Shown here in pieces: positions 33,288 to 52,662 of a stretch of 64,000 nucleotides of DNA. How positions within the stretch are numbered: position 1 is the first letter of the stretch; every line of letters begins with the position of its first letter. Where the stretch lies: the NCBI RefSeq assembly GCF_024494595.1, contig NZ_JANHDI010000006.1, positions 62,001 to 126,000 on the forward strand. The letters are read 5' to 3'. Position numbers and translations under genes: made by a program. This DNA is from Halobellus rarus (lineage in GTDB: Archaea; Halobacteriota; Halobacteria; Halobacteriales; Haloferacaceae). A model generated the notes under the pieces. The model had not been told where the DNA came from. It searched no databases and saw nothing but the letters and a program-made list of their open reading frames with translations.

Positions 33288-33657
33288 GCGCGGTCGGCCC
33301 TGGCAAAAGACCGCCGACTGGTCTCCCCGGGAACACGGGTGACCGTGTCTACGGCGTCGACCCCATACGGGCCGTATCTTCCGTTTCGGTGCTCGTGACT
33401 CCACGCGGCTGCGATTAGTACTAATAATTGATATAATGGAAGAAACATAATAAGATAAATATAGACTTAAATAAGTTAACTACCTTCACAACGATCTAAA
33501 ATGGTTAGATAGAATTATAATCAAAATATAGAAAATTTATTGATATAAATACTATTGAGATATGTTCAGACAACCGCTCGTGCCGTCAGCATCCGGCGAC
33601 GGACGTCATTGCGGGTCTTTCTCAAATTATAAGTTAGATCATCTCGTCCCCGTTATT
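33288..33657. other. AT-rich intergenic stretch before the catabolic cluster
   Basis: From about 33419 to 33560 the sequence is strikingly A+T-rich (runs such as AATTGATATAATGG, AGATAAATATAGACTT, ATAGAAAATTTATTGATAT) in an otherwise G+C-rich window. No ORF of note. It ends with an ordinary TATA-type box (AAATTATAAG, 33624-33633) before the first CoA ligase. It may be a strong promoter zone, a silenced region or the scar of an insertion. Confidence 0.6.
33624..33633 (+). promoter_or_regulatory. TATA-type box of CoA ligase 1
   Basis: AAATTATAAG, 24 bases before the ATG at 33658, the distance expected for an almost leaderless haloarchaeal transcript. Confidence 0.55.
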
Positions 33658-35211
33658 ATGCATCACACGTCGACGGTAGAGGTGCCTCCTATCAAAGATC
33701 TGTCTCGAATCGCGGCGGAGAACAACCCGGACAAGGTCGCGTTCGGCAACGGCGTCGACGGTGAGACGATGACTTGGTCGGAGTTCGACCGCCGGAGTAA
33801 TCAGGCCGCCAACGCGTTCAGACAGCACGTCGGCCAGGGCGATCGGATCGCGCTGCTGTGTGAGAACTCCCTCGAACACACCGTGCTCTGGAACGGCGGG
33901 CTGAAAACGGGCTGCACCGTCTCGAACTTACACGTCCGAGCGTCGCCGAACACGCTCGAACACGTCATCGACTCGTTCCGACCCCGCGCGCTCGTCGTCG
34001 ACGAGGAGACTTCGGAGTTCTTCGAGGAGCGTCTCCGCGACAAGATCGACACCGACCTCGACGTGATCGTCAACGTCGGCGAGGCACAGACCGACTACGA
34101 GGAGTCCTTCGAGCCGTTCCTGGACGGGCAATCCACCGCCGACCCCGACGTTCGCGTGCGAGAGGAAGACACGGCCGTCGTGATGTGGACCTCTGGGACG
34201 ACCGGCGAACCGAAGGGGTGGTGTCACACGAACCGGGGCCTGTACTTCCGCGCTACCACGCTCGTGAGCGTCTACGAACTGAACCGACCCGCCCGCCAGC
34301 CGCACGTCTTCACTCCCTCCTTTGCCGCCTGGTACTCCGTGGTGCTTCCCGCGCTCGTCTCGGGCGCGACGACGTACTTCTTGAGCTCCTGGGACCCGGA
34401 GACGTATCTCGAGATGATCGACGAGCACGACCTGACCAGCGCGCTCCTCGTGCCCACGATGTGGCGGGAGATCCTCAACCTCGACTCGTTCGACGAGTAC
34501 GATCTGAGTTCGCTGTCTGGGGTGATGTCGGCTGGCGAGGTCCTGAACGCGACGACGCTCAGGCGGCTCCGCGAGAGCGTCTGCGACGTGGTGAAGAACT
34601 CCTACGCGGCGACGGAGGCGTACGCCACGGTGATGGAGAACCCCGAACTCACCGAGGACCGCGTCGAGAGCGTCGGCAAGCCGGTCCCCGGCGTCGAGAT
34701 CCGCGTCGTCGACGACGAGGGTACCTACGAGGACGTCAAGCCGACGGGAGAGGTCGGCGAACTCGCCGTCAGAGCTCCGGACTGTCCGGTGTGGGCCTGG
34801 GAGCGCACGCGGAAGACCGAGGAGGTGTTCGAGGACGGCTGGTGGTACTCCGGCGACCTCGGATACAAGGACGAGGAGGGGTTCATTTACCTCGAGGGTC
34901 GAACCGACCTGATGATCCTCTCGAAGGGGATCAAGGTGTACCCCGCCCCCGTCGAGGAGCGACTCAACGCGCACCCCGACGTCAACGAGTCGGCGGTCGT
35001 CGGCGTCGAGGACGACGAGTACGGCGAGAAGGTCGTGGCGTACGTGTACCCCGCCGACCCCGAACTGACGGCCGAAGAGTTAGACGAGTGGTGCCTCGAG
35101 AGCGACGAACTCGCCCGGATGGAACGTCCCCGGGAGTACCGCTTCGTCGACGAGTCCCTTCCGCGCACCTCGACGGGCAAACTGGACCGGCTGAGCGCGA
35201 AAGACGAATAG
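33658..35211 (+). CDS. Acyl/aryl-CoA ligase 1 (ANL superfamily)
   Basis: 517 residues from ATG 33658. AMP-forming ligase motifs: P-loop WTSGTTGEPKGWCHT, YAATEAY, YSGDLGYKDEEGFIYLEGR, and the A10 Lys in PRTSTGKLDR at the C-terminus. It activates a carboxylate with ATP and CoA. Next downstream is an O-demethylase-like gene, and a close paralogue lies at 49530, so an aromatic or phenylpropanoid acid is the probable substrate (inference). The extra N-terminal residues from 33562 lie inside the promoter. Confidence 0.88.
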   Translation: MHHTSTVEVPPIKDLSRIAAENNPDKVAFGNGVDGETMTWSEFDRRSNQAANAFRQHVGQGDRIALLCENSLEHTVLWNGGLKTGCTVSNLHVRASPNTLEHVIDSFRPRALVVDEETSEFFEERLRDKIDTDLDVIVNVGEAQTDYEESFEPFLDGQSTADPDVRVREEDTAVVMWTSGTTGEPKGWCHTNRGLYFRATTLVSVYELNRPARQPHVFTPSFAAWYSVVLPALVSGATTYFLSSWDPETYLEMIDEHDLTSALLVPTMWREILNLDSFDEYDLSSLSGVMSAGEVLNATTLRRLRESVCDVVKNSYAATEAYATVMENPELTEDRVESVGKPVPGVEIRVVDDEGTYEDVKPTGEVGELAVRAPDCPVWAWERTRKTEEVFEDGWWYSGDLGYKDEEGFIYLEGRTDLMILSKGIKVYPAPVEERLNAHPDVNESAVVGVEDDEYGEKVVAYVYPADPELTAEELDEWCLESDELARMERPREYRFVDESLPRTSTGKLDRLSAKDE

Positions 35212-35337: not shown

Positions 35338-36690
35338 ATGAGCGAACGATCGTGGTCTTTCAGCGACAGTATGGCGGAGGCCGCCGACAAGGCGGGCAGT
35401 CCGGTCGAACTTATGCGCGATCTCGGTGTCGGGAAATTCACTAAAGTCCCGGACGAGATCACCAACTGGATCGAAGAGCAGCGGTCCTGGCGGGAGTCGG
35501 TCGCCTTCGCCGACCAGTCGTATCACATGACGGATCAGTACGTCGAGGGTCCCGACGCGCTCGACTTCTATCGCGACTACGCCGTCAACAAGTTCGACAA
35601 CACCGAGCCCGGCAAGGCGAAGCAGCTCGTCGTCGCCAACCCCAACGGGAAGTTCATCGGGGACGCGATCTGGTTCCACCTCGAAGAGGACAAGTTCCTG
35701 AGCGTCGGCGGCGCGGCCGCGCACAACTGGCTCCAGTACCAGGCCGAAACCGGTGACTACGACCTCGAGGCCGAGATGCAGCCCCGGCCCGTCACGATGG
35801 ACGAGGACCCCACCTACTACCGCTTCCAGGTGCAGGGCCCCGACGCCGTCGACGTGATGCAGGACGTCGCCGACGAGCCGCTGCCGGACCTCGGCTTCTT
35901 CAACCACACCGCCGTCTCCATCCAGGGACACGACGTCAACATCCTCCGCCACGGAATGGCCGGCGAGGCCGGATACGAGTTCTGGGGCCCCTACGAGGAG
36001 GGCGAGGAGATCAAGGAGATCGTCATGGACGCCGGCGAGGAGTACGACATCAAGCACCTCGGCGCCGAGAGCTACCAGACGCCGAACGCGATCCTCGGTT
36101 GGATCCCGCTCGTCGTCCCCGCCATCTTCGACGAGGGGATGGAGGACTACCTCGAATGGCTCGACGTCGGCGACGGCCTGCTCTCGATCGGCGGCAGCTT
36201 CGAGTCCGACGACATCACCGACTACTACTTCACGCCGACGGAGCTCGGCTACGGGCACATCATCGACACGAACGGCGACTACTGCGGCAGCGAGGCCCTC
36301 GCGGCGGAAGCCGGCGATCCCGACCGCGAGAAGGTCACGCTCGTCTGGAACGACGAGGACGTCGTCGACGTCTTCGCGTCGCTGTTCAGCGACGGCCCGA
36401 CGAAGAAGTTTATGCGGCTTCCGCACCCGCGCTCGTCGGCGTGCCACTACGACAAGGTCCTCGACGACGGCGAACAGGTCGGCGTCTCCACGGACAAGTC
36501 CTACATCTACAATCAGCGTGAGCTGATCTCTCTGGCCGTCGTCGACAGCGAGTACGCCGAACCCGGAACCGAGGTTTCGCTCGTCTGGGGCGAACCCGAA
36601 GACAACACGAACAAGCGGGTCGAACGCCACGAGCAGACCGAGATCCGCGCGACCGTCGCGACGGCTCCGTACACCGAAGACAGCCGGTAA
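35338..36690 (+). CDS. LigM/DesA-like tetrahydrofolate-dependent O-demethylase 1
   Basis: 450 residues of the GcvT (aminomethyltransferase) fold. The arrangement NWIEEQRSWRESV, FADQSYHMTD, VEGPDALDF, AKQLVVANPNGKFIGDAIWF, RFQVQGPDAVDVM, LRHGMAGEAGYEFWGPY, then LVWGEPEDNTNK with a final ATVATAPY is the pattern I recall for LigM and DesA, which move the methyl of vanillate or syringate to tetrahydrofolate. It is longer than T-protein or DmdA. A paralogue at 40030 and a MetF at 41644 support the role. DMSP-type demethylation remains an alternative. Confidence 0.78.
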   Translation: MSERSWSFSDSMAEAADKAGSPVELMRDLGVGKFTKVPDEITNWIEEQRSWRESVAFADQSYHMTDQYVEGPDALDFYRDYAVNKFDNTEPGKAKQLVVANPNGKFIGDAIWFHLEEDKFLSVGGAAAHNWLQYQAETGDYDLEAEMQPRPVTMDEDPTYYRFQVQGPDAVDVMQDVADEPLPDLGFFNHTAVSIQGHDVNILRHGMAGEAGYEFWGPYEEGEEIKEIVMDAGEEYDIKHLGAESYQTPNAILGWIPLVVPAIFDEGMEDYLEWLDVGDGLLSIGGSFESDDITDYYFTPTELGYGHIIDTNGDYCGSEALAAEAGDPDREKVTLVWNDEDVVDVFASLFSDGPTKKFMRLPHPRSSACHYDKVLDDGEQVGVSTDKSYIYNQRELISLAVVDSEYAEPGTEVSLVWGEPEDNTNKRVERHEQTEIRATVATAPYTEDSR

Positions 36691-36801
36691 GCCGGCCACC
36701 GACTGACCAACCCACCTTACTTCGCCGCCCGGCGCAGCCCACGTTTTTCGCTTCCGCCTCAGGTGATAACTGCAAAGTACCCCAGGCCCGTCGGCCGACG
36801 T

Positions 36802-37761
36802 ATGACGCGCGTACTGATCGATCAGGACATCACGCCCACCGACCGACTGCTCGACTATCTCGACGACGACTGGGAGGCGACCGTCGGCATCGACGGGGAC
36901 GAGGAAGCTCTTCTCGAGGTCGTCGGCGAGTACGACGTGCTTCTGGTGACTTCTCGTGTCCCGCTCACTCGCGACGTTATCGCGGCGGCCGACCGCCTGA
37001 AACTGATCGGAAAGCTGGGGACCGGAATCGACTCGATCGACCTCGAGGCCGCACGGGAGTACGGCGTCACGGTCACGCACACGCCCGGTCACAACGCGCT
37101 GTCGGTCGCCGAACACGGCCTCTGTCTCACGCTCGCGTGCGCCCGCCGACTCCCGACCGCCGAGGACCTCCTCTCGGCGGGTCAGTGGCGCGACGAGTAT
37201 CCGCTGGGGACGCGGGTGTCCGGAACGACGGTCGGCATCGTCGGCTTCGGCAACGTCGGCAAGCGGGTCGGTAAACTCCTCTCCGGGTTCGACGTCGACG
37301 TCTTGGTTCACGATCCGTACGTTCCGACCATCGACGCGGAACTCGCTGATGCCGAGATCAAGGCGCTCGATGATCTGCTCGAACGGAGCGATTTCGTGAT
37401 CCTCACGCCGGAACTGACCGACGAGACGCGTCATCTGATCGGCCCTCGGGAACTGCGTCGGATGCGAGACTCCGCGATACTCGTCAACGTCTCTCGGGGT
37501 CCCGTCGTCGACGAAACGGCGCTCGTCGACGCCCTCCGCTCCGACGAGATCGCCGGCGCGGGACTCGACGTCTTCGAAACCGAACCTCTTCCGTCCGATT
37601 CGCCGCTTCACGCGCTCGAAAACGTCGTGACGACGCCGCACATCGCCGCGATGACTGGCGCGTGCCGACGGGGCAACATCGATCAACTCGCCGAAAATGT
37701 GACCCGCCTGTTCGCCGGCGAGTCGGTCCTCGATCGGTACGTTCCGGTCAGGGGCGAGTGA
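36802..37761 (+). CDS. D-2-hydroxyacid dehydrogenase (PGDH-like)
   Basis: 319 residues from ATG 36802. NAD-binding VGIVGFGNVGKRVG (about 146-159), catalytic Arg in NVSRGPVVDE, Glu in DVFETEPLP and His in TPHIAAMTG: the full R-E-H set of the D-isomer-specific 2-hydroxyacid dehydrogenases. It lacks the C-terminal ACT domain of serine-pathway PGDH. The likely role is reversible reduction of a 2-oxoacid. Position inside the cluster suggests a metabolite of the aromatic route, not proven. Confidence 0.88.
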   Translation: MTRVLIDQDITPTDRLLDYLDDDWEATVGIDGDEEALLEVVGEYDVLLVTSRVPLTRDVIAAADRLKLIGKLGTGIDSIDLEAAREYGVTVTHTPGHNALSVAEHGLCLTLACARRLPTAEDLLSAGQWRDEYPLGTRVSGTTVGIVGFGNVGKRVGKLLSGFDVDVLVHDPYVPTIDAELADAEIKALDDLLERSDFVILTPELTDETRHLIGPRELRRMRDSAILVNVSRGPVVDETALVDALRSDEIAGAGLDVFETEPLPSDSPLHALENVVTTPHIAAMTGACRRGNIDQLAENVTRLFAGESVLDRYVPVRGE

Positions 37762-38542: not shown

Positions 38543-39304
38543 ATGCCCACTGACCGCACGCCGCTCACCACCGTCGCGCGGGCGTTCGAGATCTTGAGCA
38601 TTCTCTGGGAACTGGACGGTGCCGGCCCTTCCGAGATCGCCTCGCGGTTAGACCTCCCGGACAGCACCGTGTACGACTACCTGCGCTCGCTGAACGACAC
38701 ACGGTACGTATCTCGGGACGACGGCGAGTACCACCTCAGTTCGTATTTCATCACTATCGGCGGGAAAATGAAATACCGGAACCGCCTCTACCAGGTCTCG
38801 AAGCCGGAGATGAAACAGGTCGTCTCCGAGACCGACGAACTCGTTGGACTGACGGTCGAAAGCGACGGGCGAGCGCTGGTATATCACCAAGAGGAGGGGA
38901 GACAGGCCCTGAACCTGGGAACGTACTCCGGGGCGACCACTCCGCTTCACACCGTAGCCACCGGGAAAGCGATCCTCGCGTACCTCCCCGAGGAGCGGAT
39001 CGACGAGATCATCGAACAGCGGGGACTGGAAAAACGGACCGACCAGACGATCACCGACCCCGAGGTTCTGAAGCAGGAACTCGAACAGGTCCGTGAGGAC
39101 GGCTACGCCATCGACTGGGACGAACAGGTCATCGGAATGGGGATGGCGGCGGTCCCGATCATCATCGACGAGGAAATCCTCGGATCGTTCGGAATCGTCG
39201 TCCCGACCGGTCGGATCCGGGACTCGACTTACCAGGAGGAGATCGTCCAGAAACTTCAGGAGATGACCAACAAGGTCACGATCAACTACCAGTACGGAGA
39301 CTGA
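38543..39304 (+). CDS. IclR family transcriptional regulator
   Basis: 253 residues. N-terminal winged helix (TVARAFEILSILWEL, GPSEIASRLDLPDSTVYDYL, YHLSSYFITIGG) and C-terminal effector domain with HTVATGKAILAYLP and GMGMAAVPIIIDEEILGSFG, the full IclR layout. IclR proteins regulate aromatic and acetate catabolism and respond to small carboxylates, so it is the natural candidate controller of the surrounding genes. Two inverted repeats lie just upstream of its start. Confidence 0.95.
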   Translation: MPTDRTPLTTVARAFEILSILWELDGAGPSEIASRLDLPDSTVYDYLRSLNDTRYVSRDDGEYHLSSYFITIGGKMKYRNRLYQVSKPEMKQVVSETDELVGLTVESDGRALVYHQEEGRQALNLGTYSGATTPLHTVATGKAILAYLPEERIDEIIEQRGLEKRTDQTITDPEVLKQELEQVREDGYAIDWDEQVIGMGMAAVPIIIDEEILGSFGIVVPTGRIRDSTYQEEIVQKLQEMTNKVTINYQYGD

Positions 39305-39509: not shown

Positions 39510-39905
39510 TCAGTCGTCGCCGACAGCCGTTCTCACCGCGTCCGGAAGCGCCTGCGGCTCGTTGTCAGCCTTCGAGACGCAGACGTGCCGTTCGTCTCCG
39601 GTGAACAGCGCGTTGCCGTCGGCGTCGCGCCCCGTCAACTCCATCCCGAGGCTCTTGGTTCCGACGTCCGGTTCCACGGTTATCGTGACCACGTCACCGA
39701 CGGTCACTGGACGGGTGAAATCGGTGTCCATCGACACGATGGGCAGGTGAACGCCGTACTCCTCGGGGATATCCCAGTAGGCCACGCCGCGGTCGTCCAT
39801 GAACTCCTCCCCGGCGCGGTGCATCGCGTCGACGAGGTTCGGATAGTAGGCGATGCCGTGGGGATCGGCGTCTCCCCAGGCGCACTTCCATTGGTACTCG
39901 AACAT
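39510..39905 (-). CDS. Acyl-CoA thioesterase, 4-hydroxybenzoyl-CoA type
   Basis: 131 residues from ATG 39905, a single hot-dog fold. WGDADPHGIAYYPNLVDAMH gives the catalytic Asp and the H-G-x-x-Y-Y-P motif of the 4HBT family, followed by VSMDTDFTRPVTVGD. It would hydrolyse an acyl- or aroyl-CoA, which fits two CoA ligases in the same cluster. It is the only minus-strand gene in the cluster and diverges from the second O-demethylase, sharing a 124-base promoter region. Confidence 0.88.
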   Translation of the reverse strand: MFEYQWKCAWGDADPHGIAYYPNLVDAMHRAGEEFMDDRGVAYWDIPEEYGVHLPIVSMDTDFTRPVTVGDVVTITVEPDVGTKSLGMELTGRDADGNALFTGDERHVCVSKADNEPQALPDAVRTAVGDD

Positions 39906-40029
39906 CACTTCGGCATCCCTCCACCCGTATAAATATTTCACTCAGATCGTATCGAAAACGGTCGATCGGAGCGACCCGTCGGGGGCTACACAACAGTTAA
40001 CCTACGGGGAGCGCGTCTCTCCTCCATAG

Positions 40030-41376
40030 ATGAGCGAATCAACTCTCGCGGACGTCGTCCGATCGAGCGACTCGGTCGTGGATCTCCTCCGGAATCGCGG
40101 GACCGGCTGGGCCGGGTTCCCGAACGTCCCAGACGAGCACACCCACTGGATCGAGGAGCAGCGGGCCTGGGCCGAGGCGTGTTCCCTCGCGGATCAGTCC
40201 CACCATATGGTCGACTACCGGGTCGAGGGCCCCGACGCGCTCGATCTGTTCTCCGATCTCGGGATCAACGGTTTCGACCGCTTCGAGCCCGGGACGGCCA
40301 AACAGCTCGTCGTCGCGAACCCGGACGGCTACTTCATCGGCGACGGTATCCTCCTGTACCTCGACCGCGGGAAACTGGCGCTCGTCGGGCCGCCACAGAC
40401 GGCGAACTGGATCCAGTACCACGTCGAGACCGGCGACTACGACGTCCGAACCGACCGAGACGAGACGTCGGGCGTCCGCGACGGTCCGCCCCAGAACTAC
40501 CGGTATCAGTTGCAGGGACCGAACGCCGTCGATCTGATGGCGGAAGTGACGGACGAGCCCCTCCCGGATCTGGGGTTTTTTCGCTTCGACGACGTCAGCA
40601 TCGACGGCCGCGAGGTGACGCTCCTGCGCCACGGGATGGCCGGCGAGGCCGGCTTCGAGTTCTGGGGTCCCTGGGACGACGCGGAGGCGATCCACTCGAC
40701 GATCCTCGAGGCGGGCGAAGACCGGGGAATTCGACAGTTGGGCGCGAAGAGTTACGGGAGCTCCGCCGTCGTCTCCGGCTGGGTCGGGATGCCGCTGCCC
40801 GCCGTCTACGACGGCGATGCGATGTCCGACTACCGCGAGTGGCTCAGCGCGCACAGCCTCGAAGCGCACTACTCGATCGCCGGCAGCCTCGACGCCGAAG
40901 ACGTCACCGACTACTACGTGACGCCGATCGAACTGGGCTACGACCGCCTGATCGACTTCGATCACGACTTCGTCGGGCGGGAGGCCCTGGCGGCGGAGGC
41001 CGAAGATCCCTCGCGGACGCTCGTCACGCTGGAGTGGGCCGACGCAGACGTCGTCGACGTCTTCGCGTCGCTCTTCGAGGGCGGACCCGCGAAGTCCCTC
41101 GACCTTCCCGTCCCGTGGCGCTCGACTTCGCATCACGACGCCGTCCGCGACGGCGACGACCTGGTTGGCACGTCGATGTGGGCCGCCTACACCTACAACG
41201 AGCGGACGGTGATCTCGCTCGCGGTCGTCGACCTCGCGGTCGCCGATCCGGGCACCGAACTCACGCTCGTCTGGGGCGAACCCGACGGACGTCGGAATCC
41301 GGCCGTCGAGCGCCACGCGCGCAGGGAAATCTCGGCGACGGTCGCACCGGTGCCGTACACGTCGGACAACCGCTGA
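40030..41376 (+). CDS. LigM/DesA-like tetrahydrofolate-dependent O-demethylase 2
   Basis: 448 residues, a close paralogue of the gene at 35338: HWIEEQRAWAEAC, LADQSHHMVDYRVEGPDAL, AKQLVVANPDGYFIGDGIL, QLQGPNAVDLM, LRHGMAGEAGFEFWGPWD, NERTVISLAVVD, LVWGEPDGRRNPAVERH. Compared with copy 1 it keeps the IGDGI and SHHM wording closer to what I recall of LigM. It is followed by a MetF gene, the arrangement that supplies or drains methyl-tetrahydrofolate. The two copies may serve different methoxy positions or substrates. Confidence 0.8.
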   Translation: MSESTLADVVRSSDSVVDLLRNRGTGWAGFPNVPDEHTHWIEEQRAWAEACSLADQSHHMVDYRVEGPDALDLFSDLGINGFDRFEPGTAKQLVVANPDGYFIGDGILLYLDRGKLALVGPPQTANWIQYHVETGDYDVRTDRDETSGVRDGPPQNYRYQLQGPNAVDLMAEVTDEPLPDLGFFRFDDVSIDGREVTLLRHGMAGEAGFEFWGPWDDAEAIHSTILEAGEDRGIRQLGAKSYGSSAVVSGWVGMPLPAVYDGDAMSDYREWLSAHSLEAHYSIAGSLDAEDVTDYYVTPIELGYDRLIDFDHDFVGREALAAEAEDPSRTLVTLEWADADVVDVFASLFEGGPAKSLDLPVPWRSTSHHDAVRDGDDLVGTSMWAAYTYNERTVISLAVVDLAVADPGTELTLVWGEPDGRRNPAVERHARREISATVAPVPYTSDNR

Positions 41377-41459
41377 TACTGTCGGTGGTACCTACGTGGA
41401 GTACGAGACGCTGTAGCCACCGAGCGGTCTCGACGGTGTCCTCTGTGGGGAGGTGGTGG

Positions 41460-41502
41460 TCTCCATCTCCTCCTCATTTCCTCCTTCTCACCTCCTCCTC
41501 TG
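41460..41502 (+). other. Pyrimidine-rich tract
   Basis: About 43 bases almost wholly C and T on the plus strand (only three A interruptions), made of repeated CTCCT words, ending 14 bases before a TATA-type box. It may unwind easily or be chance in a C-rich genome. Confidence 0.4.
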
Positions 41503-41515
41503 GAGCGCAGGACAA

Positions 41516-41523
41516 CCTTTATC
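41516..41523 (+). promoter_or_regulatory. TATA-type box before small ORF and metF
   Basis: CTTTATCA, with its centre about 28 bases before the ATG at 41549, so transcription should begin at or beside that ATG rather than at the metF start 95 bases further on. Confidence 0.5.
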
Positions 41524-41548
41524 AGTCACTTACCACTGAGTGTAGGTA

Positions 41549-41647
41549 ATGAGTGGATTCACAGCGGGCAGTCTGTCCGGCGGAGCCGTCGCTGTCGATC
41601 GCACGGGAACGACGGACCGAGCCCCCCACGCGGAGGATCGTCGATGA
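41549..41647 (+). CDS. Possible 32-residue leader peptide coupled to metF
   Basis: ATG at 41549 sits about 28 bases after the TATA-type box, the position of a leaderless start. The ORF (MSGFTAGSLSGGAVAVDR and 14 more residues) ends with TGA overlapping the metF ATG (ATGA). Haloarchaea often begin transcripts at the start codon, so ribosomes entering here could be handed to metF. Alternatively metF has a longer untranslated leader and this ORF is chance. A similar arrangement precedes livG. Confidence 0.35.
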   Translation: MSGFTAGSLSGGAVAVDRTGTTDRAPHAEDRR

Positions 41648-42498
41648 CGTCCAGTCAGCGCCCCTCGGCGACCGGAACGGCGTCTGCGCTCCTCGAATCG
41701 CCGCGGTTCGAACTGATGCCGTTCGACAGCTTCGACGAACAGGTCCGTCACCTCCCCGACGGCGCGACAGTGACGATCACCGCCTCGCCGGCGCTCGAAC
41801 TCGAAGCGACGATCGAGACGGCCGAGGAGGCCGCCGAAGCCGGCTACGAGGTCGTTCCGCACGTCTCGGCGCGGTACGTTCGCGACTCCGAGCACCTCGC
41901 CGAGATCTGTGAGCGCTTGGAAGCCGTCGGGATCTCCGACATCTTCGTCCCCGGCGGCGACCGCGAGGAACCGATCGGCGAGTTCACCTCCGCCTACGAT
42001 ATGCTCACCGCGCTCGACGACCTCGAGTACGAGTTCGACGAGGTCGGCATCACCGGATATCCCGAGGGGCACGAGTTCCTCTCCGAGGAGACGCTCGCGG
42101 AGGCGATGGAGAAGAAGGCGCCCTACGCGACGTACATCGCCACCCAGCTGTGCTACGATCCCGACACCATCCTCGAATGGATCGAGACGGTCCGCGACCG
42201 GGGTGTCGACCTTCCGATCGAGGTGGGCATCCCGGGCGTGATGAAGTACGAGAAACTCCTGAGCATCTCTCAGAAGGTGGGCGTCGGCGACTCGGTCCGG
42301 TTCCTGAAGAAGACGACCGGTCTCGTGGGCTTCGTCAAGCAGTTCATCGGGTCCCGAGGTCGATACCGACCCGACGAACTGGTCGACGGGTTGGCACCGT
42401 ACGCCGACGATCCGACGTACAACATCCGCGGCCTCCACGTCTACACCTTCAATCAGGTCCCCGACACCGAGGAGTGGCGGACGGGGCGACTACAGTAG
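41644..42498 (+). CDS. metF: Methylenetetrahydrofolate reductase-like protein
   Basis: 284 residues, a (beta/alpha)8 flavoenzyme-type protein: TVTITASPALELEATIETAE, VVPHVSARYVRDSEHLAEI, DIFVPGGDREEPIGEF, ITGYPEGHEF, ATQLCYDPDTILEWIE, GIPGVMKYEKLL and a final LHVYTFNQ follow the MetF order. Beside an O-demethylase it would oxidise methyl-tetrahydrofolate back to the methylene form, as in the ligM-metF pair of Sphingobium SYK-6, so that folate is recycled and the methyl carbon enters C1 metabolism. Direction is inferred. Confidence 0.85.
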   Translation: MTSSQRPSATGTASALLESPRFELMPFDSFDEQVRHLPDGATVTITASPALELEATIETAEEAAEAGYEVVPHVSARYVRDSEHLAEICERLEAVGISDIFVPGGDREEPIGEFTSAYDMLTALDDLEYEFDEVGITGYPEGHEFLSEETLAEAMEKKAPYATYIATQLCYDPDTILEWIETVRDRGVDLPIEVGIPGVMKYEKLLSISQKVGVGDSVRFLKKTTGLVGFVKQFIGSRGRYRPDELVDGLAPYADDPTYNIRGLHVYTFNQVPDTEEWRTGRLQ

Positions 42499-42773: not shown

Positions 42774-42854
42774 ATGAGTGAGAACATCTCACACCTCCCG
42801 AACGGGTCGGATTCGGATCGAACGTCAGACGCCCGTCGGTCCAGAGGGAGGTAG
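42774..42854 (+). CDS. Possible 26-residue leader peptide before livG
   Basis: ATG at 42774 lies shortly after the TATA-type box. The ORF (MSENISHLPNGSDSDRTS and 8 more residues) ends in TAG one base before the livG ATG (TAGTATG), and a GGGAGGT site overlaps its last codons. Ribosomes finishing here could restart at livG. Too short to be sure. Confidence 0.3.
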   Translation: MSENISHLPNGSDSDRTSDARRSRGR

Positions 42855-42855
42855 T

Positions 42856-43578
42856 ATGCTGTCGGTCGAGGGACTCACGAAGAAGTTCGACTCGGTCGTC
42901 GCCGTCGACGACGTCGATATGGAACTCCGCTCCGGCGAGATTCACGGGCTCATCGGCCCGAACGGGGCCGGGAAGACGACGACAGTCAATCTCATCACGG
43001 GAGAGTTGACCCCGACGAGCGGAACGATCGAGTTCGACGGAACCGACCTGGTCGGTCGCTCGCCCTCCGCCATCGCCCGACAGGGGATCGGCCGATCGTT
43101 TCAGGTCGTCCAGTACTTCCCCGAAATGACCGTCAGAAAACACCTCCGACTCGCCGTCCGCGACTCGACGGAGACCGTCAGGAGCGTCTTCAACCGGCAG
43201 GAAGACTACGGTCCACAGATACGGGAGGTAGCCGAGCGGGTCCATCTCGAAGACGACCTCGACACGGTCGCGAAGAACCTCGCGCACGGAAAAAAACGGT
43301 TCCTGGACATCGCGATGGTGCTCGGGATGGATTCGCGGGTCATCCTCTTCGACGAACCCGCCGCCGGGCTCAATCAGTCCGAGACCGACGAGGTCAAGGC
43401 GATACTGGAGAATCTCCGCGGCGAGTACACGGTCCTGATCGTCGAGCACGACGTCGACCTCGTACGCTCGATCTCCGATCGGATCACCGTCCTGCACAAC
43501 GGATCGGTTCTCACCACGGACACGCCCGAAAACGTCGTCGAGAACCCGCAGGTCAAGGAGGTGTATCTCGGTGAGTGA
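42856..43578 (+). CDS. livG: Branched-chain/aromatic acid ABC importer ATPase
   Basis: 240 residues from ATG 42856, which is preceded by GGGAGGT. Walker A GPNGAGKT (34-41), a Q-loop followed by GIGRSFQ (typical of LivG), signature loop LAHGKKR in place of LSGGQ, Walker B VILFDEPAAGLN and H-loop VEHDVDLV. It powers a Liv-type (HAAT) importer with livF, livH, livM and a binding lipoprotein. Members of this importer family often take up aromatic acids in catabolic clusters. Overlaps livF by eight bases. Confidence 0.93.
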   Translation: MLSVEGLTKKFDSVVAVDDVDMELRSGEIHGLIGPNGAGKTTTVNLITGELTPTSGTIEFDGTDLVGRSPSAIARQGIGRSFQVVQYFPEMTVRKHLRLAVRDSTETVRSVFNRQEDYGPQIREVAERVHLEDDLDTVAKNLAHGKKRFLDIAMVLGMDSRVILFDEPAAGLNQSETDEVKAILENLRGEYTVLIVEHDVDLVRSISDRITVLHNGSVLTTDTPENVVENPQVKEVYLGE

Positions 43579-44281
43579 ACTACTAACCGTCGAGGACCTC
43601 AACGCGTTCTACGGCGACAGTCAGGTCCTCTTCGACGTCTCGATCGAACTCGGCACGAACGACGTCGTCGGCATCTTCGGCCGGAACGGAATGGGAAAGA
43701 CGACGCTCTTGAACAGTCTCGTAAACCGGATCGACCGGAAGACTGGGACCGTCACGTATCGCGGGCAGGACGTCTCTGCGTGGTCTCCACACGAGATCGT
43801 CCGCGAGGGGATCGCGTACGTGCCGGAAGAACGAGAGATCTACCCCGCGCTCTCGGTCCGCGAGAACCTCGAACTGGCGATGACGTCGGACATCGGCGAC
43901 GACGCCCGTGAGGAACGGATACAGAACGTCTTCACGCAGTTCGAACGGCTCGGCGAGCGACAGGAACAGCGTGGCGGAACGTTGAGCGGCGGCGAACAGC
44001 AGATGCTCGCCATCGGACGTGCGCTGGTGACCGATCCGGACCTGCTCCTCCTCGACGAACCGACGGAGGGACTCGCGCCCGCGATCATCGACGACGTCGT
44101 CGACATTCTCGAATCGCTGGTGACCGGCGATCGGGCGGTGCTGATCGCCGAACAGAACATCAATCGGATGCTCCCGCTCATCGACCGTGGATACATGATC
44201 CAGACCGGCCGGATCGTCGAAGAGGGAGATTCTGACCACCTCAGTGACGAGGCGATTCACGACAAGTACCTGACGGTATAA
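43571..44281 (+). CDS. livF: Branched-chain/aromatic acid ABC importer ATPase
   Basis: 236 residues from a GTG. Walker A GRNGMGKT (37-44), LSGGEQQML signature, Walker B LLLDEPTEGLAP and the LivF hallmark IAYVPEEREIYPALSV. It pairs with LivG as the second ATPase of the importer. The start overlaps the end of livG, showing translational coupling. Confidence 0.94.
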   Translation: MSELLTVEDLNAFYGDSQVLFDVSIELGTNDVVGIFGRNGMGKTTLLNSLVNRIDRKTGTVTYRGQDVSAWSPHEIVREGIAYVPEEREIYPALSVRENLELAMTSDIGDDAREERIQNVFTQFERLGERQEQRGGTLSGGEQQMLAIGRALVTDPDLLLLDEPTEGLAPAIIDDVVDILESLVTGDRAVLIAEQNINRMLPLIDRGYMIQTGRIVEEGDSDHLSDEAIHDKYLTV

Positions 44282-44712
44282 CCGTCTTCACCCGCACTCA
44301 CGGTATTCCCCGCCGAAGGCCCCCGTGGAGTCAGGGGACATCGTTCAGCGCCGTTTCGGTTCGCGTCTGAGGCGGCAGAAGCGTCCCTCTCACTACGCTA
44401 CACGCTGTCTCGCTCACCATCCTATACGCGATCGTATCCACTGACTGCGGTGCGGCGTCCGCCGTTCGAACCGCCGTCGTCTCACCCGGCGAGGGCTGAT
44501 TTGTCGGGCTGCGGGCAGTTTGGCTGAGGTCCCCTTCGTTCTGAAACCGGCACGTTTCGACGCTCCCCGGCCGCGTACCGTCGTTCGGCTTACAAAAATT
44601 ATATTATGATGTGGATTATCCCGTATAGTGTGTTATCGATGACGAACATTACCTCGCACAGTAGTCGAGTACCTAACTACTACCGCTCGGACACCGCTCT
44701 CGTGTAACGGCT
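44282..44712. other. Intergenic region with internal livH promoter
   Basis: About 430 bases between livF and livH. It includes an imperfect 5-4-5 inverted repeat, ATACG-CGAT-CGTAT, near 44424-44437 and an A/T-rich TATA-like run, TACAAAAATTATATTATG, at 44591-44608, a hundred bases before livH. The gap splits the importer into two transcripts or makes a long leader. No ORF. Confidence 0.5.
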
Positions 44713-45600
44713 ATGTTAGAAATTCCTCTTATAACCACTGAGAACTTTATTACCTACGCACTGAACGGCCTGAGTCGGGGGATGATCATCTTTCTGGTGG
44801 CCAGCGGACTCTCGCTCATCTTCGGGTTGATCGGGCTCATCAATTTCGCCCACGGAGCGATGCTGGCGCTGGGCGGATACGGGACCTACGTCGTGATCCA
44901 GGCGACGGGGAACTTCTGGCTCGGACTCGTGATCTCCGTCGTTCTCGTCGCGGTATTAGGACTCGCCTTGGAACGGAAGGTCTTATACTGGATCTACGAC
45001 GAGCCGCTGCTCGGGTTTCTCTCGACGTTCGGTATCGGGTTGGTCATCGAAGAGGCCCTCGCCGTGTACTTCGGGAGTCGATCGTACACGGTCCCCTCGC
45101 CGCTTCCCGAGTCGGTTCAGGTACTCGGGGTAAGCTACCCGTCGTATCGCCTGTTCGTGATTCTCGTCGGAGCGGTTGTCGCTCTCGGAATCGGCCTGAT
45201 CCTCGTGAAAACGCGTCTGGGGTTGGAAATCCACGCGACGGCGAATATGCAGCCGACGGCCGAGATCCTCGGCGTCGACACCGCGCGGATCTACACCATC
45301 ACGTTCGTCCTCGGGACTGCGCTCGCGGCGCTCGCCGGCGCTCTCACCGCACCGATCACGTCGATGTACCCCACGATCGGTCTCGACTACATCACGATGG
45401 CGTTTCTCGTCATCATCGTCGGCGGGATGGGGAGTTTCAAGGGCTCGTTCGTCGTCAGTATGATCGTCGGACAGATCATCGCCTTCGGATGGCTGGTACT
45501 CTCTCCGACGTACGTCCGCATCCTCGTCTTCGCCGCCGCGATGGTGTTCATCCTGTACAAGCCGCGTGGCTTCTTCGGTAAGGCGGAGGTGCACGAATGA
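44713..45600 (+). CDS. livH: Liv-type ABC importer permease
   Basis: 295 residues, about eight membrane helices. GLIGLINFAHGAMLALGGYG near the N-terminus is the LivH signature, and the coupling loop region MQPTAEILGVDTARIYTITF matches. One of the two membrane subunits that pair with LivM. Its last four bases overlap livM (ATGA). Confidence 0.94.
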   Translation: MLEIPLITTENFITYALNGLSRGMIIFLVASGLSLIFGLIGLINFAHGAMLALGGYGTYVVIQATGNFWLGLVISVVLVAVLGLALERKVLYWIYDEPLLGFLSTFGIGLVIEEALAVYFGSRSYTVPSPLPESVQVLGVSYPSYRLFVILVGAVVALGIGLILVKTRLGLEIHATANMQPTAEILGVDTARIYTITFVLGTALAALAGALTAPITSMYPTIGLDYITMAFLVIIVGGMGSFKGSFVVSMIVGQIIAFGWLVLSPTYVRILVFAAAMVFILYKPRGFFGKAEVHE

Positions 45601-46559
45601 GCGACAGACTGTCGGACGTTCGCGGGTTCGTTCGGGGACTGCCTCGGCGGCCCCTGCTCGCCGTCGGCGTGCTTTTACTACTGGCCGTTCCCTTCTTGTT
45701 CCCCAGCCAGTCGGATCTCGCGACCGAGGCGCTCATCTTCGGTCTCTTCGCCATCTCCGTCGACATCGTGCTCGGCTACGCCGGACTGCTCTCGCTCGCG
45801 CCGGCGGCCTTCTTCGGGCTGGGTTCGTACACGGTCGCCAAACTCGTCGTCGACTACGGACAGTCGTTCTGGCTCGGTTTCCCCCTCGCGATCGTTCTCG
45901 CGCTCGTCCTGGCGTTGGTCGTCGGCTACGTGCCGATCAAGCGTCGTATCGGCAACGTCTACTTCGTGCTTTTCACCCTCGCGTTCGGGGCGATCGTACA
46001 CGACTTCACCTTCGTCACGACGTGGCTGACCGGCGGCTCCGACGGACTCGGCTTCTTCGGCCCGCCGGAGGTCCTGGGGATCGACCTCGGTGGTAACACC
46101 GAATATTACTACTTCACGCTCGTCACCGTCGCAATCGTCGGATACGGCCTGTATCTCCTGATCAAGAGCGATTACGGCGACATCCTGCACGCCACTCGGC
46201 AGAACGAACTCCGAATGCGGTATCTCGGCTACGACACGAACCGCGAACTGATGATCGCGTGGCTCGTCTCCGCCGCGGTCTCCGCCTTCGCGGGGGCTGT
46301 GTACGTCGGACTCGTCGGAATCGCCTCGCCGTCGCTCGTCTCGTTCGCCCTGACCGGCGACGTGATCATCTGGATCATCGTCGGCGGCACGGGAACGCTC
46401 CTCGGACCGTTCGGTGCGGCGATCGGACTCGTCTTCGTACAGGAACTCCTGCAGAACCTGTGGCAGGGCGGCTACCGACTGCTTCTCGGCATCCTCTTCG
46501 TCGTGTTCGTCTTCGTGCTCCCGGACGGGCTTATGGGGCTTCTCCGGGACGAGGAGTAA
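45597..46559 (+). CDS. livM: Liv-type ABC importer permease
   Basis: 320 residues, about nine membrane helices, with VDIVLGYAGLLSLAPAAFFG early and NELRMRYLGYDTNRELMIAW (coupling helix) late, then GGTGTLLGPFGAAIG, the LivM pattern. Overlaps livH, so both permease subunits are made together. The gene for the binding protein follows after a 290-base gap with its own promoter. Confidence 0.94.
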   Translation: MSDRLSDVRGFVRGLPRRPLLAVGVLLLLAVPFLFPSQSDLATEALIFGLFAISVDIVLGYAGLLSLAPAAFFGLGSYTVAKLVVDYGQSFWLGFPLAIVLALVLALVVGYVPIKRRIGNVYFVLFTLAFGAIVHDFTFVTTWLTGGSDGLGFFGPPEVLGIDLGGNTEYYYFTLVTVAIVGYGLYLLIKSDYGDILHATRQNELRMRYLGYDTNRELMIAWLVSAAVSAFAGAVYVGLVGIASPSLVSFALTGDVIIWIIVGGTGTLLGPFGAAIGLVFVQELLQNLWQGGYRLLLGILFVVFVFVLPDGLMGLLRDEE

Positions 46560-46652
46560 TCCCCTCCCTCGGTTCTCTGCTCGATCGGCCTGCTTTTGCG
46601 ACGTCATCCGTTTCTCGTCGGTCGGTCCTGTCGCCCGTGGACGCGTGACCAG

Positions 46653-46720
46653 TCACGGGGACGCCTCAGTCGCATACCGCTTCAGATCACGGGAGACGTT
46701 TCAGTCGCGTACTCCTCAGA
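46653..46720. repeat. 34-bp tandem duplication upstream of the binding-protein gene
   Basis: Two consecutive 34-base units, 46653-46686 and 46687-46720. Both start TCACGGG, share TCAGTCGC in the middle and end TCAGA. They lie about 90 bases before the TATA-type run of the substrate-binding protein gene and may be paired regulator sites. Confidence 0.65.
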
Positions 46721-46810
46721 TGCTCCCTGCTGGGGCGACAAGTCGTCCGTTTTCCCGACAGCCGATGTCGTCCGTCGCGAACCCCGCTAAATTCGCCGCT
46801 ATTCGACCCG

Positions 46811-46820
46811 AAATTTTATT
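46811..46820 (+). promoter_or_regulatory. TATA-type box of the Liv binding protein gene
   Basis: AAATTTTATT, 34 bases before the ATG at 46854. It argues against the in-frame ATG at 46821, which lies directly on it. Confidence 0.55.
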
Positions 46821-46853
46821 ATGAATACTGGTAACAAACAGTACAGGTATACG

Positions 46854-48086
46854 ATGATTCAACGAAGATCGTTCCTCAAAGCTGCGGGCGTCGCGGGACT
46901 CACCTCGGCCGCCGGCTGTCTCGGCGGTGGCGGCGGCGGAAGCGATTCGGTCAAGATCGGTGCGGTGATGGCCCTGAGTGGTCCGTTCGCACGAACTGGC
47001 GAAGAAAATCAGCGCGGACTGGAAGTCGCCGAGGACTATCTCGACGGCGAGATCCTCGACAGCGAATTCGAGCTCATCATCGAGGACGGCGAGTCGGATC
47101 CGAACGCGTCGATCCAGGCGGCCCGCACGCTCGTCGAAGACGAGGACGTCGACGCCATCATCGGCCCGGTGAGCAGTGGTAATTCCATCTCCGTGATGCA
47201 GTACATCAAAGAGGACGGGCAGGTGCCCCACCTGATGACCACGGCCTCGTCCGTCGAGGCCCGTGAGAACCCGGAGAACTGTAACGAGTACGGGTTCTTC
47301 ATCTGGCCCAGCAATCGGCACCTCGCGCCGACGGGGACGCAGTTCATTCAGGATCTCCCCAACCACATCGACCGCGACTTCGATCCCTCCCGGGTCCACT
47401 ACGTTTCACAGGACTACGCGCTCGGCCAGAACGGTCTCGAACTGGTCGAGGAGTCGATGAACGAAGTCGGTGGCGAAGTCACCGGCAGCACGCTGGTCCC
47501 GCTCGGGGAGACCGACTGGTCGTCCTACATCTCCGAAATCGCCAACAGCGAGGCCGACGTCGTCACCGGCGTCCTCACGTGGGGTGCGGCCGCACAGTTG
47601 ATGCCGCAGGCCAACTCCTTCGGACTGCCCGAGGAGAAGGTGATGATGTTCAACTCCGGGAAGCCGATCGGCCAGTTCGCCGCTTCGACGATGCCCGACG
47701 AAGTCACCGTCGACGGCTGGTTCGGGACGCACTTCTACAACCCCGGACTCGACACCGACGTCAACAACGAGTTCCAGAGCCTCTACAACGAACTCGACAG
47801 CTCGCTTCTGCCGAACTCGACGGCGGGTGCGTCTTTCGAGCTGATGCGAGCGCTCGCGACGGTGATCGAAGACAGCGGCTCGACAGCCACGGACGACATC
47901 ATCTCCGGGCTCGAGGGACTGGAGTGGGACTCGGTCTTCGGGCCGATCCAGTTCCGCGAGGAAGACCATCAGGCGGCGCTCAACTTCTTCGGTGGCCGAC
48001 GCGTCGCGTCCGACGGAGACGCCACCGAGGTGGAAGTGTTCGAAGAGTATCCGGACGTCATTCCGGACGCGCGCTGCAGCCTCTAA
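46854..48086 (+). CDS. Liv-type ABC importer substrate-binding lipoprotein
   Basis: 410 residues from ATG 46854. The Tat signal MIQRRSFLKAAG and lipobox SAAGC (mature Cys about 22) are followed by a Gly-rich linker and a periplasmic-binding fold of the LivK/Leu-Ile-Val type (KIGAVMALSGPFARTGEENQ, AIIGPVSSGNS). It is lipid-anchored outside the membrane and hands substrate to LivHM. The ligand is not readable from sequence; the neighbours suggest an aromatic acid. Strong hairpins follow its stop. Confidence 0.92.
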   Translation: MIQRRSFLKAAGVAGLTSAAGCLGGGGGGSDSVKIGAVMALSGPFARTGEENQRGLEVAEDYLDGEILDSEFELIIEDGESDPNASIQAARTLVEDEDVDAIIGPVSSGNSISVMQYIKEDGQVPHLMTTASSVEARENPENCNEYGFFIWPSNRHLAPTGTQFIQDLPNHIDRDFDPSRVHYVSQDYALGQNGLELVEESMNEVGGEVTGSTLVPLGETDWSSYISEIANSEADVVTGVLTWGAAAQLMPQANSFGLPEEKVMMFNSGKPIGQFAASTMPDEVTVDGWFGTHFYNPGLDTDVNNEFQSLYNELDSSLLPNSTAGASFELMRALATVIEDSGSTATDDIISGLEGLEWDSVFGPIQFREEDHQAALNFFGGRRVASDGDATEVEVFEEYPDVIPDARCSL

Positions 48087-48439: not shown

Positions 48440-49522
48440 ATGAAACTCGGTCGATTCCTGGTCGAGACGCATTGCCACGCCCAGCGTCACGCCGCCCGCA
48501 TCCAGATGGACGGCGACGCCGACTACGGCGAGCTCGCGAAGAAGATGGTGACCGCGGTCCCGGGCGACGAGGCCACAGAAGACGACGAGGTCATCGTCTA
48601 CGACAACTCCGATCGCGTCCTCCGTGATATGGACACCTACGGCGTCGATATGTGCGTGTTGCTCCCCGGAACCTTCGGATTCACGAACGAGATGCACGCC
48701 GAGATGATGGCCGAACACCCCGAGAAGTTCGTCGCCGCCGCCTACCCGGTCCAGACGATGAAGGCGGCCCAGCGCGGCGAGGAGGAGTGGACCGCCGAGG
48801 CCGCCGCCGCCGAGGTCGACGAGTGGCTGGGGAAGGACGGCTTTCGGATGATCGGCGAGGGGATGCCGTACGACCCCACGACCGAGGAGCCGATGGAGTG
48901 GTCCGAGCGGAAGGACGAACTCCGGGAGTTCTTCGACGTCGCCGCGAAGCACGAGGTCCCGATCCGTTGGCACACCGGCTACGTCTCCGGCTACGCCACC
49001 GGCCTCGGAATCTTCGATCACTTCCCCGACTGGAGCGATCCGACGCTGGCGTCACAGATGAAGGCCGAATATCCGGAGGTCCCGATCATCTTCGACCACG
49101 GCGGGATGCAGGCCACGTGGCGCGAGCACCACGTCGATCAGTGCTGTCAGGTCGCCGCCTCCTTCGACGACGTCTACCTCGAGATCGGGTTGTACTGGGC
49201 CGACCTGATGAAGAAGCCGATGAACGACCCGAACGTCGGCGTCGATCAGTTGCTCTGGGGGACCGACTGGGGGGCGTCGATGCCGCAGATCAGCCAGCCG
49301 AACGAGGACCCGCCGTACTACTGGGACCAGATCGCCGACCGCGGGCTTCCGGCCCACCAGGTGGACTTCTGGGGCCCGAGCCTTCGACAGCTCCAGAAGT
49401 TCGCGATGGAGCGCGACCTCACCCAGGAGGACCTGAATCTGATCCTCGGCGGCAACGCGGTGCGGTTGTTCGACATCGAGGTGGAGGACGACCGGATGTT
49501 CCGGAACTACATCGACCTCTGA
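48440..49522 (+). CDS. Amidohydrolase_2 family decarboxylase/hydrolase
   Basis: 360 residues of the ACMSD-like metal-dependent hydrolase family. Metal ligands are visible: H11-x-H13 (ETHCHAQ), H178 (RWHTGY), H220 (IFDHGG) and D276 (LLWGTDWG). Family members decarboxylate or hydrolyse aromatic acids or ring-cleavage products (5-carboxyvanillate, gamma-resorcylate, 2-amino-3-carboxymuconate semialdehyde, oxalomesaconate). It lies seven bases before CoA ligase 2, so the two form an operon. Exact reaction unknown. Confidence 0.87.
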   Translation: MKLGRFLVETHCHAQRHAARIQMDGDADYGELAKKMVTAVPGDEATEDDEVIVYDNSDRVLRDMDTYGVDMCVLLPGTFGFTNEMHAEMMAEHPEKFVAAAYPVQTMKAAQRGEEEWTAEAAAAEVDEWLGKDGFRMIGEGMPYDPTTEEPMEWSERKDELREFFDVAAKHEVPIRWHTGYVSGYATGLGIFDHFPDWSDPTLASQMKAEYPEVPIIFDHGGMQATWREHHVDQCCQVAASFDDVYLEIGLYWADLMKKPMNDPNVGVDQLLWGTDWGASMPQISQPNEDPPYYWDQIADRGLPAHQVDFWGPSLRQLQKFAMERDLTQEDLNLILGGNAVRLFDIEVEDDRMFRNYIDL

Positions 49523-49529: not shown

Positions 49530-51101
49530 ATGCACACGACATCCACCCCCGGCCTGCCGCCGATACACGAACTGTCGGCGATCGCGGCGACCAACAACCC
49601 CGACCGGGTCGCGTACGGCGAGGCGACGACCGGGAGGGAGGTGACGTGGTCGACGTTCGAGGAGCGGAGTTGCCGCGCCGCGAACGCCCTGCGCGATCAC
49701 TGCGCGCAGGGCGATCGAGTGGCGTTCCTCTGCGATTGCTCGATCGCACACACTGCCCTGTTCAACGGCGCGATGAAGGCCGGTTGTGTCGTGTCAAATC
49801 TCCACACGCGCGCGTCGGCCGAGACACTGCGGTACTGCCTCGACTCGATCCGACCCCGCGTGCTCGTCATCGACGAGCAGTTCTCCGAGATCGTCGAATC
49901 CGATCTCTACGGCGAGATCACGACGGACCTCAGCGCGGTCATCACGACCGGCACCGAACGCGCCGACTACGAGCGGTCACACGAACCGCTGCTCGAATCG
50001 CACGAAGCCGTCGCCCCCGACGTCCGCGTTCGGGAGGACGACGTCGCGTCCATCCAGTGGACGTCCGGCACGACCGGGCGACCGAAAGGCTGGTGTCACA
50101 CCCACCGAGCGCTCTGTCACAAGGCGCTCCATCTCGAAAAGCTCCTCGCGCTCGACCGGACCGCCGCCCAGGCGCACGTGTTCACCCCGTCGTTCGCCGC
50201 GTGGTACGCGCTGTTTCTCCCCGCGCTGTCGTCGAACGCGGCCACGTACTACCTCTCGGAGTGGGATCCCGAGGCGTACGTCCGGCTGATCGACGAACAG
50301 GGACTGACCACCGCTGATCTGATTCCCACGATGTGGCAGGAAGTGCTCCGGCTGGATTCGCTCTCCGAATACGACCTCAGTTCGCTGAACCGGGTGGTCA
50401 CGAGCGGCGAGTACCTCGACGAGCGCACGCTCGCGGCGATGCGCGAGGAGATCTGCGACGACGTGTACAACAGCTACGCCGCCACCGAGGTCCTGGGAAC
50501 CGAAATCAGCGCGGCGGAGCTGACCGACGACCGCGCCGGCAGCGTCGGCAAGCCCATCCCCGGAACTCGGGTCCGCGTCGTGGAACCCGGTGGGCGACCC
50601 GACTCGGTCAGACCGGCCGGGGAGACGGGCGAGATCATCATCAAGGGCCCCGACCGCGCGTCGTGGGCCTGGAACGATACGGAAAAGACCGAGGATATGT
50701 TCGAGGACGGGTGGTGGTATTCGGGCGATCTCGGGTACAAGGACGAGGAGGGTTACCTGTACGTCGAGGGCCGGACCGACTTCATGATCAAATCGAAGGG
50801 GATCAAGGTCTTCCCGACGCCCATCGAGGAGCGGCTGTTGGAGCACCCGGCGATCGAACGGGCGGCGGTCGTGGGCGTCCCGGACGAGGAGTACGGCGAA
50901 AAGGTGGTGGCGGTGATTCGCCGCACAGACCCCGACGTCGATCGCGACGAACTCGAAGCGTGGTGTCTCGAGAGCGACGAGGTCGCACGCTTCGAACGCC
51001 CGCGCGAGTACCGCTTCGTCGAAGAGTCGTTCCCGCGGACCGCCACGGAGAAACTCGACCGCGCCGAGATCCGTTCGCGAGTGATCCCGGACGGGGAGTG
51101 A
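49530..51101 (+). CDS. Acyl/aryl-CoA ligase 2 (ANL superfamily)
   Basis: 523 residues, paralogous to the gene at 33658 along its whole length. WTSGTTGRPKGWCHT, YAATEVL, YSGDLGYKDEEGYLYVEGR and a C-terminal PRTATEKLDRAE are seen. The A10 catalytic Lys is present, but the usual T-G-K before it is T-E-K here. It follows the amidohydrolase by seven bases, so it may activate that enzyme's product or substrate. Confidence 0.87.
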   Translation: MHTTSTPGLPPIHELSAIAATNNPDRVAYGEATTGREVTWSTFEERSCRAANALRDHCAQGDRVAFLCDCSIAHTALFNGAMKAGCVVSNLHTRASAETLRYCLDSIRPRVLVIDEQFSEIVESDLYGEITTDLSAVITTGTERADYERSHEPLLESHEAVAPDVRVREDDVASIQWTSGTTGRPKGWCHTHRALCHKALHLEKLLALDRTAAQAHVFTPSFAAWYALFLPALSSNAATYYLSEWDPEAYVRLIDEQGLTTADLIPTMWQEVLRLDSLSEYDLSSLNRVVTSGEYLDERTLAAMREEICDDVYNSYAATEVLGTEISAAELTDDRAGSVGKPIPGTRVRVVEPGGRPDSVRPAGETGEIIIKGPDRASWAWNDTEKTEDMFEDGWWYSGDLGYKDEEGYLYVEGRTDFMIKSKGIKVFPTPIEERLLEHPAIERAAVVGVPDEEYGEKVVAVIRRTDPDVDRDELEAWCLESDEVARFERPREYRFVEESFPRTATEKLDRAEIRSRVIPDGE

Positions 51102-51228
51102 CTCGGCGTTCCGTCGCGGAGTGACTCAGCGCCACCGGCGCTCTCCCTCTGGCAAAGACCGTCGAATACTCCCCGATTCGGGTGCCTATATCGGAATACT
51201 TACTATCGTTGCTCGGCGTATTTCGGGT

Positions 51229-51594: not shown

Positions 51595-51737
51595 CGCGAC
51601 CGTCGCCGCGTCTGTCCCTCCCCACGTTTTCCGTTCCACGCCGGTAGAGCGGTAGCCGCCGCTCCGGCCCCGGTGGGTGCACGTGTGTGGTGCTCCGCCG
51701 CCCGCCGGTTCGATCGGTCGAGCGATCCGATCGGAAC

Positions 51738-51747: not shown

Positions 51748-51771
51748 TCTGCTCCCGCAGTCGATCCCACA

Positions 51772-52637: not shown

Positions 52638-52662
52638 GTAGACGGACGTGGATCGAGTTGCA

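Follow-up and report, generated by a model that had tools for sequence, protein, structure and literature searches.

A LigM-like O-demethylase gene beside metF in Halobellus rarus: a candidate folate-dependent route for aromatic methoxy groups in haloarchaea

In Sphingobium SYK-6, the genes ligM, metF and ligH form an operon (PMC6888825; PMC12585457), and the MTHFR of this organism oxidises 5-methyl-tetrahydrofolate (5-methyl-THF) jointly with LigM (PMC12585457). For LigM-type demethylation, a methyl-transferring tyrosine is mentioned (PMC9296663). Among archaea, the methanogen Methermicoccus is described as demethoxylating aromatic compounds by a bacteria-like methyltransferase system (PMC8630106). 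A literature search of partial coverage found no report of a LigM-MetF combination in haloarchaea. Here, we analyzed such a combination in a stretch of 64,000 nucleotides from Halobellus rarus, referred to as the window, and compared it with other haloarchaeal genomes and with the bacterial systems.

Protein families and gene arrangement at the locus

The preliminary description of the window had placed an O-demethylase gene followed by metF at 40030-42498. This was right: the two genes lie on the same strand, 267 bp apart, and encode a LigM/DesA-family protein, here called LigM#2, and a SYK-6-like MetF (Table 1).

Table 1. Features of the demethylase-metF cluster in the window, in order of position
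Feature	Position	Strand	Remarks
acyl-CoA ligase 1 (AMP-forming)	33562..35211	+	linked to LigM#1 in all clusters compared
LigM#1, second LigM/DesA-family protein	35338..36690	+	partner of metF in other haloarchaeal families
D-2-hydroxyacid dehydrogenase	36763..37761	+	
IclR-family regulator	38543..39304	+	near metF in other families too
4HBT-type acyl-CoA thioesterase	39510..39941	-	
LigM#2, LigM/DesA-family THF-dependent aryl O-demethylase-like, 448 aa	40030..41376	+	PDB, NCBIfam, AF2 model
TATA/BRE-like motif GACAACCTTTATC	41511..41523	+	upstream of metF, conserved in six Halobellus genomes
MetF, MTHFR family, SYK-6-like, 284 aa	41644..42498	+	PF02219, PDB 7xg9, AF2 model
branched-chain-amino-acid-type ABC importer (two ATPases, two permeases, substrate-binding protein)	42778..48086	+	candidate substrate uptake
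Amidohydro_2-family hydrolase/decarboxylase-like protein	48440..49522	+	
acyl-CoA ligase 2	49530..51101	+	
glyoxalase-fold protein + HpcH/HpaI aldolase	51121..52557	+	
catechol 2,3-dioxygenase-like extradiol ring-cleavage enzyme	52648..53595	+	

LigM#2 carries a GCV_T domain (aminomethyltransferase folate-binding family; Pfam, E 5e-38) and, in a PDB sequence search, matched the solved LigM structures 5tl4/5x1i over its full length (residues 5-444, E 1e-109) with 370 bits versus 58 bits for T-protein. The top match of its AF2 model (pLDDT 72) was again LigM (Z 39.4, rmsd 3.0, 427 residues aligned); glycine-cleavage T-proteins reached a Z of about 32 or lower. The protein scored below the NCBIfam equivalogs for LigM (NF047885, 440 bits, cut-off 580) and DesA (NF047633, 510 bits, cut-off 800) as well as below the GcvT equivalog TIGR00528 (54 bits, cut-off 235.85), and in a quick tree the haloarchaeal LigM-like proteins formed a separate clade that did not group with LigM (SH-aLRT 99). 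Since both curated LigM and DesA cut-offs were missed and the haloarchaeal clade stands apart, we rejected the assignment of LigM#2 as LigM or DesA proper. Sequence comparison instead places it in a haloarchaeal branch within the LigM/DesA family, the members of which probably demethylate plant-type methoxylated aromatics.

Proteins of the GcvT fold are also at work in glycine cleavage and in the demethylation of DMSP, dimethylglycine and methylenedioxy rings (PMC5547118), so that LigM#2 might use an N-methyl, S-methyl or methylenedioxy donor or even be a glycine-cleavage T-protein. We regard this as very improbable. LigM is far nearer both by structure (Z 39 versus 32) and by the bit scores given above, and where T-proteins have the first Asp of their IDD motif, LigM#2 has Gly, like LigM. 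Furthermore, the window genome has GcvP genes adjoining GcvT at other sites, and the cluster surrounding LigM#2 is one of aromatic catabolism. Within this cluster, the Amidohydro_2-family protein had no PDB match at E 0.001, and we therefore assign no reaction to it. No viral relative of LigM#1 was found.

Altogether, six LigM/DesA-like paralogues are present in the window genome, including those at loci L026, L027, L028 and L029. Several of them adjoin differing transporter or ring-cleavage genes, and these varied neighbours suggest a range of methoxylated substrates. The paralogues outside the cluster are linked to other transporters and none is linked to metF, so adjacency to metF is not general for the LigM family in this genome. 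The end of contig C20 (L028, 17892-18398) and the start of contig C18 (L029, 1-507) share one sequence, inverted relative to each other. This is probably a repeat that interrupted the assembly, and both contig ends have a LigM paralogue nearby.

MetF belongs to the Pfam MTHFR family (PF02219; E 2.8e-14, 53.6 bits, gathering cut-off 24). Its best PDB match is the Sphingobium SYK-6 MTHFR 7xg9 (E 1e-35), with a fungal enzyme (7e-11) and that of Thermus (1e-4) as further matches. The AF2 model (pLDDT 69) is an MTHFR TIM-barrel with 7xlf/7xg9 as top matches, at Z 22.4 to the CH3-THF complex of the SYK-6 enzyme and about 20 to E. coli MTHFR. The protein stayed under the canonical NAD(P)H-dependent MetF equivalog TIGR00676 (60.5 bits, cut-off 293.7). 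In a tree, haloarchaeal MetF was sister to actinobacterial LigM-linked MetF (support 100/100), and SYK-6 MTHFR branched apart from it with proteobacterial sequences; because the tree is midpoint-rooted and long branches meet in it, this deep order is unsure. A second MetF of the window genome (within C19:1-12000) is encoded beside glyA and dimethylglycine-dehydrogenase-like, AstE/AspA-like and creatininase-like genes, an arrangement that recurs across other haloarchaea, some of them without LigM.

A motif of the type GCARGACAAnnTTTATCA, resembling an archaeal TATA promoter, is present between LigM#2 and metF in each of the six Halobellus genomes compared and lies at 41511-41523 in the window. 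A sigma-70 promoter scan gave no site, as expected in an archaeon. The earlier suggestion of one promoter between the two genes is plausible in the light of this conserved motif, though unproven. As metF has a promoter-like motif of its own, a single operon with LigM#2 is not clear, and from a gap of this length carrying such a motif we infer an arrangement that argues against strict co-transcription of the pair. The motif was absent from the other cluster genes of the window, and for this reason we claim no shared regulator site. A short ORF, MSGFTAGSLSGGAVAVDRTGTTDRAPHAEDRR, is located at 41549-41647 on the plus strand; it starts about 30 bases past the TATA-like motif and ends in an overlap of its stop with the start of metF (ATGA). 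By eye, three other Halobellus genomes have short ORFs at the equivalent place, with little conservation of sequence.

Pocket residues and candidate substrates

In the alignment, residues H60, Q165, E215, Y247 and W256 of LigM are identical in LigM#2, with Y247 corresponding to Y242 and E215 to E210. Y247, which we take to be the catalytic tyrosine, is kept in 38 of 39 haloarchaeal rows, and E215, presumably a folate-site residue, in 39/39. The situation is different for Arg122 of LigM, which we assume to be the carboxylate contact of the substrate pocket. Bacterial rows have Arg at this position in 80 of 87 cases (His in six, Ile in one), haloarchaeal rows in none of 39; LigM#2 has Pro121 here, and the orthologues of LigM#1 have Gly, Ala or Ser. 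The comparison with the LigM pocket that the preliminary description had envisaged thus came out divided, with the folate and catalytic positions kept and Arg122 exchanged for Pro.

With Arg122 replaced in LigM#2, vanillate, which had been proposed as substrate by analogy with SYK-6, is not supported. A role for LigM#2 in demethylating vanillate or syringate like bacterial LigM or DesA would require that the carboxylate is bound without the Arg, and we consider it unlikely even though LigM and DesA are its top matches and the cluster encodes an extradiol dioxygenase. Besides the distribution of Arg at position 122 (80/87 versus 0/39 rows), the scores of LigM#2 under both curated cut-offs and its position in a separate clade speak against it.

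Acyl-CoA ligase 1 is a constant companion of LigM#1 (Table 1) and a 4HBT thioesterase is present in most of the clusters compared; such an acyl-CoA ligase is rare at the bacterial LigM loci compared. On the basis of the Arg122 loss together with the linked acyl-CoA ligase and thioesterase, we propose a CoA-ester or non-acid substrate: these features suggest that LigM#2 and LigM#1 act on a CoA ester or on a compound without a free acid.

Distribution in haloarchaea and direction of one-carbon flow

The class sample comprised 292 haloarchaeal genomes from 77 genera (numbered with G, the window genome being G000). At a threshold of E<=1e-80, LigM-like proteins were called in 14 genomes belonging to five genera; MetF occurs in 72/292 genomes of 24 genera. 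By Pfam search, Haloferax volcanii has none. The co-occurrence of the LigM group with MetF elsewhere was borne out, as all 14 LigM-positive genomes have MetF (Fisher p 1e-9, a value that ignores kinship) and linked clusters exist in other families. At the level of genera, MetF is found in 5/5 LigM-positive genera versus 24/77 overall (p ~0.002, calculated by hand). FTHFS is present in 68 of the 72 MetF genomes, and the two LigM-positive genomes lacking it, G222 and G057, both carry purU in the cluster.

In all six cluster-bearing Halobellus genomes of the sample, metF comes directly after LigM#2, with gaps of about 100-270 bp, and the same adjacency is present in H. limi, where the cluster resides on a 398-kb plasmid (identity 90% for LigM#2, 97% for LigM#1). 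This conservation in six Halobellus and H. limi indicates that the pairing is not due to chance. There are two copies of metF in each of the six genomes and a single one in the four remaining Halobellus genomes; in three Halobellus genomes without this cluster only other LigM paralogues were found, none of them metF-linked. Outside Halobellus, the neighbour of metF is of the LigM#1 type, at a distance of 0.9 kb in G272, 0.6 kb (divergent) in G222, 2 kb (divergent) in G256 and 11 kb in Halostagnicola larsenii, and metF of Halosolutus also clusters with the LigM#1 type. The one LigM#2 relative seen outside Halobellus is that of Halosolutus, at a distance of 16-17 kb from MetF. G257, representing one LigM-positive genus, showed no LigM-metF linkage. 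The LigM#2-metF combination is hence not supported as the general haloarchaeal pair. As in H. limi, the related clusters of Halostagnicola larsenii and Halosolutus gelatinilyticus are located on plasmids.

The clusters of Halostagnicola and Halosolutus contain folP-folC, pabB, pabA and folD, and parts of this set occur in other clusters. The purU gene adjoins metF in Halostagnicola, Halosolutus, G272 and G222 and lies nearby in G256, and the G272 cluster encodes a formate dehydrogenase alpha subunit (745 bits, cut-off 666). In the actinobacterial genus Amycolatopsis, LigM, MetF, PurU and FolD are encoded consecutively. Taken together, the one-carbon genes in the clusters of the relatives would make a complete outfit for THF-dependent C1 oxidation. 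They match the needs of oxidative methyl disposal and THF recycling and, as far as gene content can tell, support this function. We tentatively put forward, as a possibility to which we give rather limited credence, that several haloarchaeal families possess a plasmid-borne methoxy-aromatic module able to make THF for itself (folP-folC, pabA/B), to remove methyl groups (LigM-like), to oxidise them (MetF, FolD) and to release formate (PurU, FDH), the demethylases of which would take CoA thioesters or carboxylate-free compounds and not free vanillate or syringate.

The window genome has FolD, and FTHFS is encoded on the same contig about 98 kb away (C20:3562-5250). Neither PurU (search at 1e-30) nor a Mer-like reductase (search at 1e-20) was found in it, so that the LigM#2-MetF pair alone leaves the direction unfixed. 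The neighbourhood had been put forward as evidence for the direction of methyl flow, and this is true in part: folD, purU, fdhA and the folate genes of the relatives fit oxidation, but the pair by itself is undecisive.

A Mer-like protein is present in 287/292 haloarchaea (E 1e-20). It is missing only in G000, G217, G289, G001 and G007, i.e. in three Halobellus genomes including that of the window and in two of genus g22, and all five have MetF. This suggests that MetF replaced Mer in these genomes, and at least one of the two MetF copies of the window genome may run reductively for methionine synthesis. Were the LigM#2-linked MetF itself the stand-in, making methyl-THF for methionine, its adjacency to LigM#2 would reflect shared folate use only. 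The presence of MetF in all five Mer-less genomes (5/292) speaks for this reading; we nevertheless judge it improbable, because the Mer-retaining Halobellus genomes G126, G219 and G276 still carry a LigM-linked MetF, the second MetF beside glyA could serve the reductive role, and the linked purU, folD and fdhA of other families favour oxidation. A function as substitute for glycine cleavage, as in SYK-6, was also considered and was dropped because the window genome has GcvP.

Proposed route and comparison with known systems

The analysis shows the sequence family, the match in fold, the kept residues, the neighbourhoods and the co-occurrence; from these we infer substrate, reaction, MetF direction and regulation, and we consider the following route probable as a whole. 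LigM#1 and LigM#2 would demethylate a methoxylated aromatic compound through the conserved tyrosine (Y242), yielding 5-methyl-THF, which the adjoining MetF would oxidise to 5,10-methylene-THF. In the window genome, FolD and FTHFS would take the one-carbon unit to formyl-THF and formate with regeneration of THF; in other families, FolD and PurU, in one case with formate dehydrogenase, would perform the same step. Ring opening after demethylation would fall to two enzymes of the cluster, the extradiol dioxygenase and the HpcH-type aldolase. The ABC importer would provide substrate entry, and the acyl-CoA ligase and thioesterase step probably handles the substrate.

Such a route would mean that MetF-coupled, THF-dependent O-demethylation of aromatics, as known in lignin-degrading bacteria, extends to folate-using archaea in brine, and it offers a concrete set of genes by which haloarchaea might draw one-carbon units and carbon from plant-derived aromatics. 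It might also account for the bacterial-type MetF of some haloarchaea in a class where a Mer-like protein is the rule, and it raises the question whether loss of the LigM arginine is correlated with CoA-ester substrates.

The demethoxylation system of Methermicoccus is corrinoid-dependent. The likeness lies in an archaeon consuming aromatic methoxy groups, whereas the haloarchaeal system would be a one-protein THF-dependent enzyme. Actinobacterial LigM-MetF-PurU-FolD runs (Amycolatopsis, Blastococcus) come near the Natrialbaceae clusters in gene set and order, and LigM-MetF is found on a Rhodococcus opacus plasmid. However, the actinobacterial LigM-linked MetF proteins have only 36-43% identity to haloarchaeal MetF, and position 122 of LigM is His in the Amycolatopsis/Blastococcus clade. 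Like the ligM-metF-ligH operon of SYK-6, the Halobellus locus has a LigM-family gene followed by an MTHFR gene, the product of which has the SYK-6 enzyme as top PDB match, and FolD and FTHFS are present in the genome. Unlike that operon, it has two demethylase paralogues, neither of which is LigM or DesA and both with Arg122 changed, a separate promoter-like motif precedes its metF, the FTHFS gene (ligH) is not adjacent, and CoA ligases and a thioesterase are linked in the cluster. Moreover, Halobellus has glycine cleavage genes, which SYK-6 lacks. By analogy, the Halobellus pair is thus one that would work like the SYK-6 pair without being the SYK-6 pair.
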